NCBI RefSeq assembly: GCF_041435015.1
Contig: NZ_CP107989.1
Coordinates: 5,208,001 to 5,272,000 of the forward strand
Direction: 5' to 3'
Source of the DNA: Streptomyces canus
GTDB lineage: Bacteria; Actinomycetota; Actinomycetes; Streptomycetales; Streptomycetaceae
DNA: 64,000 bases
In this document: positions 14,340-14,510 of the stretch, piece after piece
Position numbering within the stretch: the first letter of the stretch is position 1
Layout of the letters: each line of letters starts with the position of its first letter
The notes under the pieces: generated by a model
Database searches by the model: none
The model's input: only the letters and a program-made list of their open reading frames with translations
What the model was told of the DNA's origin: nothing
Position numbers and translations under genes: made by a program

Positions 14340-14510
14340 ACACGCGGGAGCTCGGAGCACCGGGCTGAGAGGGCGCTGACCTCCGTCCCAGCGATGTTTC
14401 ACGTGGAACGTCATCTCAAGCGAGTGACGTTCCCCACGAAACATCGGCAGACGGAAACCGCTGCGTCGACCGCCGAACCTGTTACCGGGTAATGCCGGCG
14501 TAGGGAGTAG
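14340..14510 (+). ncRNA. TPP riboswitch (THI element) of thiC
   Basis: The 5' half has the thi-box with CTGAGA at 14365-14370, preceded by GGAGCACCGGG. The 3' half has ACCTGTTACCGGGTAATGCC at 14477-14496, followed by GGCGTAGGGA, ending six bases before the thiC ATG. These two blocks are the universal thiamine-pyrophosphate-binding core. Between them is an arm of about 53 bases (14393-14445): an 8-bp stem (GATGTTTC/GAAACATC), a 4x4 internal loop and a 9-bp stem (GGAACGTCA/TGACGTTCC). Because the 3' half abuts the start codon, control is probably by hiding the ribosome site (AGGGAGTAGG) when TPP is bound. Confidence 0.93.
14396..14409. other. parS: parS-like site, one mismatch, inside the riboswitch
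   Basis: GTTTCACGTGGAAC differs from the consensus only at position 11 (G for A). It lies wholly inside the variable arm of the TPP riboswitch. Confidence 0.7.

Follow-up and report, generated by a model that had tools for sequence, protein, structure and literature searches.

A one-mismatch parS site in the P3 arm of the Streptomyces thiC riboswitch probably serves in both DNA and RNA

Introduction

Can a single short sequence be held both as a chromosome segregation site in DNA and as one strand of a riboswitch stem in RNA? The thiC leader of Streptomyces canus raises this question, as a sequence resembling parS lies within the P3 arm of its TPP riboswitch. We analysed the 64,000-nucleotide stretch comprising positions 5,208,001 to 5,272,000 of contig C1 in a 10.68-Mb genome (hereafter the window; coordinates are window positions unless the contig is named), together with the thiC loci of related genomes. 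From the comparison of these sequences, we put at about 80% the probability that the 5' strand of the arm is a genuine, slightly weakened chromosomal parS site, most likely one that loads ParB, which doubles as a strand of the RNA stem.

Results

The gene downstream of the leader (14516 to 16312, + strand, 598 aa) was identified as thiC by its match to the Radical SAM ThiC family (PF01964, E 3e-188). The TPP riboswitch model RF00059 aligned end to end at 14334 to 14523 on the same strand (cmscan 37.3 bits, E 6.2e-06 in a 351-base search). Model positions 1 to 105 were all aligned, with the conserved core halves and the consensus helices present, and 86 nt within P3 were left as an unaligned insert. 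The score lies below the gathering score of 54.3, and a search at that Rfam cut-off returned no match at the thiC leader; the gathering score is a curators' threshold and not a biological feature. When 14 thiC loci were scanned at the cut-off, all 11 from the same genus failed, four with parS and seven without (L254, L255, L262, L263, L265, L151 and L173), as did the Kitasatospora leader (L026). Only those of Nonomuraea (L029, 66) and Bacillus (L032, 83.9) scored above it. Since leaders without parS fail as well, the shortfall is a property of the thiC leaders of the genus, and the view that the P3 insert is its sole cause was not supported (7 of 7 scanned same-genus leaders without parS missed too). 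We infer TPP-dependent control of thiC from the position of the element upstream of the gene. A promoter and terminator scan at the thiC leader found nothing.

Within the insert, GTTTCACGTGGAAC at 14396 to 14409 (+ strand) departs from GTTTCACGTGAAAC, which we take to be the 14-bp palindromic parS consensus, at position 11 only (A11G). A sequence-only reading of this DNA had placed a parS-like site with this mismatch inside the riboswitch arm, and both the site and its location were confirmed. Allowing up to three mismatches, nine parS matches were found across the window against 1.02 expected, a number reached in none of 100 shuffles. A wider search of 324 kb around the origin revealed 21 sites, 16 perfect and the others with a single mismatch, all inside 192 kb; no site with exactly two mismatches occurred in the 324 kb, and the same 21 sites make up the whole-genome total at that tolerance. 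The thiC-leader site (5222396 of contig C1) is 51 kb from dnaA (5169707-5171659, minus strand) and 44 kb from parB (5176918-5178018), which adjoins parA (5175674-5176921); the identities of all three products were confirmed by Pfam. The arm site thereby shares with chromosomal parS a 14-bp match within the tolerated variation and clustering near oriC and parAB. Each genome that carries the arm site contained 13 to 40 perfect parS sites and no copy of the reversed pattern. In the sections of the 2016 ChIP-seq paper drawn on here (PMC4852455), 16 parS sites are described within ~200 kb of oriC in S. venezuelae, where almost all ParB peaks lie at parS, and the S. coelicolor parS behind the weight matrix is printed as GTTTCACCTGAAAC.

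Several other members of the cluster have contexts of their own. A perfect parS at 270 to 283 forms the centre of a 48-bp perfect palindrome (253 to 300, a 17-bp flanking inverted repeat) and its transcript, if any, would fold into a strong hairpin with the site at the tip. Two perfect sites lie 36 bp apart at 25091 to 25104 and 25127 to 25140, and similar close pairs occur at 5190382/5190422 and 5203184/5203221 of contig C1; by symmetry, any two close parS sites create a potential RNA hairpin. The parS at 5175676 of the contig coincides with the first start codon of the script-called parA frame (which reads M-F-H-V-K), and a G8A variant lies inside the parB frame at 5177098. In three other genomes (L280, L297 and L302), a perfect parS was seen by eye in the short spacer between two apparent tandem tRNA genes. 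Elsewhere in the window, 7636 to 7760 matched the Streptomyces small RNA Scr3920 (Rfam RF02828, 153.5 bits).

The distribution of the arm site was assessed in 150 genomes of the genus, including that of the window. A thiC gene was found in 149 (G073 gave no thiC match), and the core pattern served to read 146 of their leaders; the remaining three (G037, G120 and G121) have no arm, were counted as lacking the site and were left off the alignment and tree. A parS with at most one mismatch was present in the thiC arm of 67 of the 149 genomes, always starting at leader offset 31 to 33 (67/67), and was missing from 82, so the site is dispensable. The best match per leader had no mismatch in nine cases, one in 58 and five to seven in 79, with no best match of two to four mismatches among the 146 aligned leaders. 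A chance match was rejected on this gap. Leader length itself varied from 68 to 144 nt within the genus. On the tree of 146 thiC genes, presence and absence of the site required three changes against a shuffled mean of 48, gain and loss being indistinguishable. The sequence-only reading had asked whether the parS core is retained in the arm among relatives: it does not vary freely among carriers, and more than half of the genomes do without it.

A second sample at the level of the family gave thiC-leader parS sites in 134 of 250 genomes of the genus and in none of 144 genomes from 16 other genera. These are hand counts, 31 of the 250 genomes are shared with the first sample, and the search requires the core GCTGAGAG, such that a diverged leader in another genus would escape it. 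Eight further matches lay in unrelated contexts, four in other genera and four in this genus, one of the latter in a genome without a thiC-type match. Of 80 ThiC loci retrieved from named genomes, 23 reached 83% identity or more, 22 of them from Streptomyces and one from Kitasatospora. The leader was recognised at 19 of the 22, 12 of them with parS; carriers include S. antibioticus, S. murinus, S. apricus and S. catenulae, and the Kitasatospora leader had no arm parS.

As controls, 33 other TPP elements were examined: the best-scoring one from each of 30 genomes of the genus (six of them carriers) and three from the genome of the window, so that nine came from carriers of the arm site. None contained an arm-type parS, the best matches having three to seven mismatches (L135 and L136, under 3 kb, were scanned whole, and L135 gave the value of three). 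The arm parS was therefore rejected as a general feature of TPP elements. Where loci were long enough to be counted, a perfect parS was found just downstream of thiC, ~1.9 to 2.0 kb after the leader start, in 7 of 56 genomes without the arm site (G006, G021, G054, G055, G071, G078 and G134) and in 0 of 30 carriers (p 0.09), which weakly suggests that genomes without the arm site compensate by one nearby.

Two arm architectures, separated by leader length (below 125 nt, or 125 nt and above), were distinguished among the carriers. In the 18 one-site arms, the parS palindrome itself forms the hairpin tip (GUUUC-ACGU-GAAAC; eight folded). Its flanks change while remaining complementary, one pair being A-U in 12 and G-C in four of the 16 leaders with letters there, and the stems were 98 to 100% paired with changes on both sides (17 leaders). 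The longer arms of the other 49 carriers contain two sites 17 to 34 bp apart (33 bp in 28 and 21 bp in 14). The 5' site has at most one mismatch. The 3' site has one mismatch in eight, two to five in 40, and is not in register in the last. Pairing was counted on alignments of 27 of the 49 two-site and 17 of the 18 one-site leaders; a third alignment, of 13 two-site leaders of 131 nt, stands outside the pair counts.

The window has a two-site arm. Its P3 5' strand GGCGC (14372 to 14376) pairs with GCGTC at 14463 to 14467 (100% of cells paired across the 27 leaders), followed by a lower stem in which TCCGTC (14382 to 14387) pairs with GACGGA (14450 to 14455; 98.1%). Above this, the predicted arm consists of two 9-bp helices flanking a 4x4 internal loop, all on the + strand. 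The outer helix joins 14392 to 14400, which includes parS positions 1 to 5, with 14438 to 14446 (99.6% paired), and the inner helix joins 14405 to 14413, which includes positions 10 to 14, with 14425 to 14433 (97.1%, three pairs with changes on both sides). Between them, the parS centre ACGT (positions 6 to 9; 14401 to 14404) faces 14434 to 14437 across the loop and was paired in 35.2% of cells. The earlier claim that the opposite strand keeps pairing was thereby borne out: the helices of the 27 aligned leaders were 97 to 100% paired, four helix pairs had changes in both partners, the TPP core columns were invariant or nearly so, and a 159-nt stretch of the window's leader was predicted to fold better than all 200 shuffles (z -2.9).

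Two features of the arm were absent from that reading, namely the position of the parS centre in the RNA internal loop and a degenerate second parS-like sequence on the 3' strand, GTTCCCCACGAAAC (14429 to 14442, + strand), with four mismatches. Within the loop, the C.A opposition of columns 39 and 73 (14402 and 14436) was unpaired in all 27 two-site leaders. This central mismatch is kept where pairing would be easy, possibly because an uninterrupted long RNA duplex, or a second strong parS, is thereby avoided.

The arm site is usually imperfect. Perfect sites account for 9 of 67 arm sites against 1271 of 1557 elsewhere in the same genomes, and one-mismatch sites for 58 of 67 against 286 of 1557 (Fisher p 1e-31, ignoring descent); on this comparison, the arm site is held in a weakened state. 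Position 11, which lies in the inner stem, had been read as a compromise between the RNA and DNA roles. In 47 of 49 leaders, it and the facing 3' base make a standard pair (A-T 21, G-C 16, G-T 10; A-C in the other two), with covariation that was not significant (four tree-independent pairs). In silico reversion of A11G to a perfect parS cost 4.9 to 6.9 kcal/mol in 15 of 26 arms, 1.2 kcal/mol in one, and nothing (-0.5) in the remaining 10. Reversion of T4C cost 2.8 to 2.9 kcal/mol in both arms concerned, and that of T9G 4.9 to 6.9 kcal/mol in three of four, the fourth gaining 4.8. Conversely, reversion of G8A stabilised 13 of 14 arms (by 2.4 to 2.9 kcal/mol in 12 and 1.0 in one) and left the last unchanged. 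Pairing in the RNA thus accounts for some of the A11G, T4C and T9G cases, but not for G8A. The commonest imperfect parS elsewhere is likewise A11G or its mirror T4C (12 of 18 among the sites listed). The idea of a compromise consequently survives in part: the site is weakened, its position 11 is nearly always paired and 15 A11G reversions are costly, but ten are free, twelve G8A reversions are clearly stabilising and the same variants are common outside the arm. Alternatively, the mismatch may serve to weaken ParB recognition within the transcribed leader, or to keep the arm from forming an extended perfect duplex as RNA or an extended palindrome as DNA.

A weakened site in a leader might also be regulatory. 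ParB bound ~60 nt into the aptamer match could tune thiC transcription by road-block or silencing, with the one-mismatch state setting its strength, and such a role may hold alongside segregation. The rarity of perfect sites here would fit, as would the repression by P. aeruginosa ParB reported at the intergenic parS3 and parS4 sites in the part of PMC7022226 used here. The same text, however, describes loss of Spo0J in B. subtilis as without effect on genes adjacent to its binding sites, and the promoter scan at the thiC leader found none. We regard regulation by leader-bound ParB as possible, though on present evidence doubtful.

If pairing were the sole constraint on the arm, both strands of the stem would be expected to change alike. 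This was examined by parsimony on the thiC tree in 48 of the 49 two-site leaders, G013 being omitted owing to its ambiguous 3' register. The 5' site accumulated 18 changes, confined to positions 4, 8, 9 and 11, with the other ten of its 14 positions unchanged; the facing 3' strand accumulated 56 (binomial p 1e-5). The asymmetry was found at paired positions (9 versus 30 changes) and at the RNA-unpaired centre (9 versus 26), and the test is conservative, as the 3' register was chosen for the best parS match, which lowers the 3' count. Conservation of the site hence exceeds what RNA pairing needs. Not all conservation of the 5' strand is attributable to parS, since in two-site arms few changes were also counted at the five positions that immediately precede the site (2, 1, 0, 0 and 1). 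At least 10 changes of 5' variant occurred among the two-site rows with no two-mismatch leader resulting, so these must include reversions. Outside the arm, 17 of 18 one-mismatch parS sites fell in the arm's three variant classes (a hand count among the sites listed, from 4 of the 67 genomes).

These data bear on the proposal that the arm is kept by RNA alone, whether for the fold, for a tertiary contact or as the target of an RNA-binding protein, its parS likeness being a by-product of a palindromic hairpin. The almost fully paired stems with changes on both sides, and the conserved stem bases just upstream of the site, are what such a constraint would produce. Nonetheless, constraint is one-sided where pairing is two-sided, the 5' strand keeps the parS centre although these bases lie in an internal loop, 79 leaders have unrelated arms and three have none, and the variant classes are those of parS elsewhere. 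An explanation by RNA alone is in our judgement improbable. Less probable still is simple inheritance of a functionless parS that arrived at some point in a tolerant arm, for although the clade-wise distribution of the site and its absence from 82 of 149 genomes would suit that history, at least 10 variant changes have left 0 of 67 sites with two mismatches, and the twelve columns following the site changed 5 to 18 times each in the same rows (counts inflated by mixed arm lengths).

For these sequences, there is good support for an arm that preserves its RNA stem and is at the same time constrained to parS on its 5' strand. The dual role first read from the window alone is accordingly strengthened at the level of sequence by retention of the site in 67 of 149 genomes, its few changes on the tree (3 versus 48) and the strand asymmetry (18 versus 56).

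Discussion

We propose that the arm carries a parS site which ParB would recognise in DNA, nucleating there on origin-proximal DNA and spreading as at other parS sites, and that the site would thereby contribute to segregation. In the transcript, these bases would make up one side of the arm's stem. The palindromic nature of parS makes the two roles compatible: a single site would fold on itself as a hairpin tip, and any strand that pairs with parS must itself resemble parS. The ligand core would still work, and the arm would be tolerated, P3 being variable. The arm would thus offer a free, untranslated, hairpin-forming place in which a parS could settle; it is open to one because P3 is variable and because the parS domain around the origin includes thiC.

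A broader and rather more speculative suggestion is that palindromic DNA-binding sites preferentially colonise RNA hairpins, two-fold symmetry in DNA being self-pairing in RNA. The thiC arm would be the clearest case, a centromere site tuned by the fold that may couple ParB occupancy to thiamine control. We think it unlikely that this holds in full. Extended palindromes surrounded 4 of 47 parS sites against 0.9 expected, with a mean-score p of 0.02 (the thiC site included), which weakly suggests that parS sites in general sit in hairpins.

Among the titles and abstract openings listed by our literature search, none concerned a parS site in a riboswitch; the thiC site may stand in existing lists of parS sites with the riboswitch unnoticed. 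Among the papers examined that join parS sites and a riboswitch, the portions seen concerned a synthetic riboswitch as a tool, or c-di-GMP. Should the proposal be correct, nature would have selected one short sequence in the thiC arm for two roles at once, centromere site in DNA and stem of a riboswitch, and the variable arm of a riboswitch could host unrelated genetic information. The effect of a ParB-loading site in a transcribed, regulated leader would become directly testable, and natural variants with no, one or two parS sites in many species allow direct tests.

The locus combines features of two known systems and departs from each. Like the chromosomal parS sites of the Streptomyces ParABS system, the arm site has the same 14-bp palindrome, belongs to the origin-proximal cluster and shows the same one-mismatch variants (A11G/T4C, G8A and T9G/A6C); unlike them, it is part of a structured RNA and mostly has one mismatch (58/67 versus 286/1557). 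As in other TPP riboswitches (THI element, RF00059), the leader matches the model from end to end, has both core halves and lies directly upstream of thiC; unlike a typical member, its P3 arm has a long insert holding a putative site for a DNA-binding protein, and its score falls below the gathering score. The nearest parallel for a regulatory parS is provided by parS3 and parS4 of P. aeruginosa, upstream of PA0011 and PA0013, which are likewise intergenic and at which ParB repression is reported, whereas the portion of that account consulted (PMC7022226) mentions no structured RNA of the kind that the thiC arm is predicted to form around its parS.
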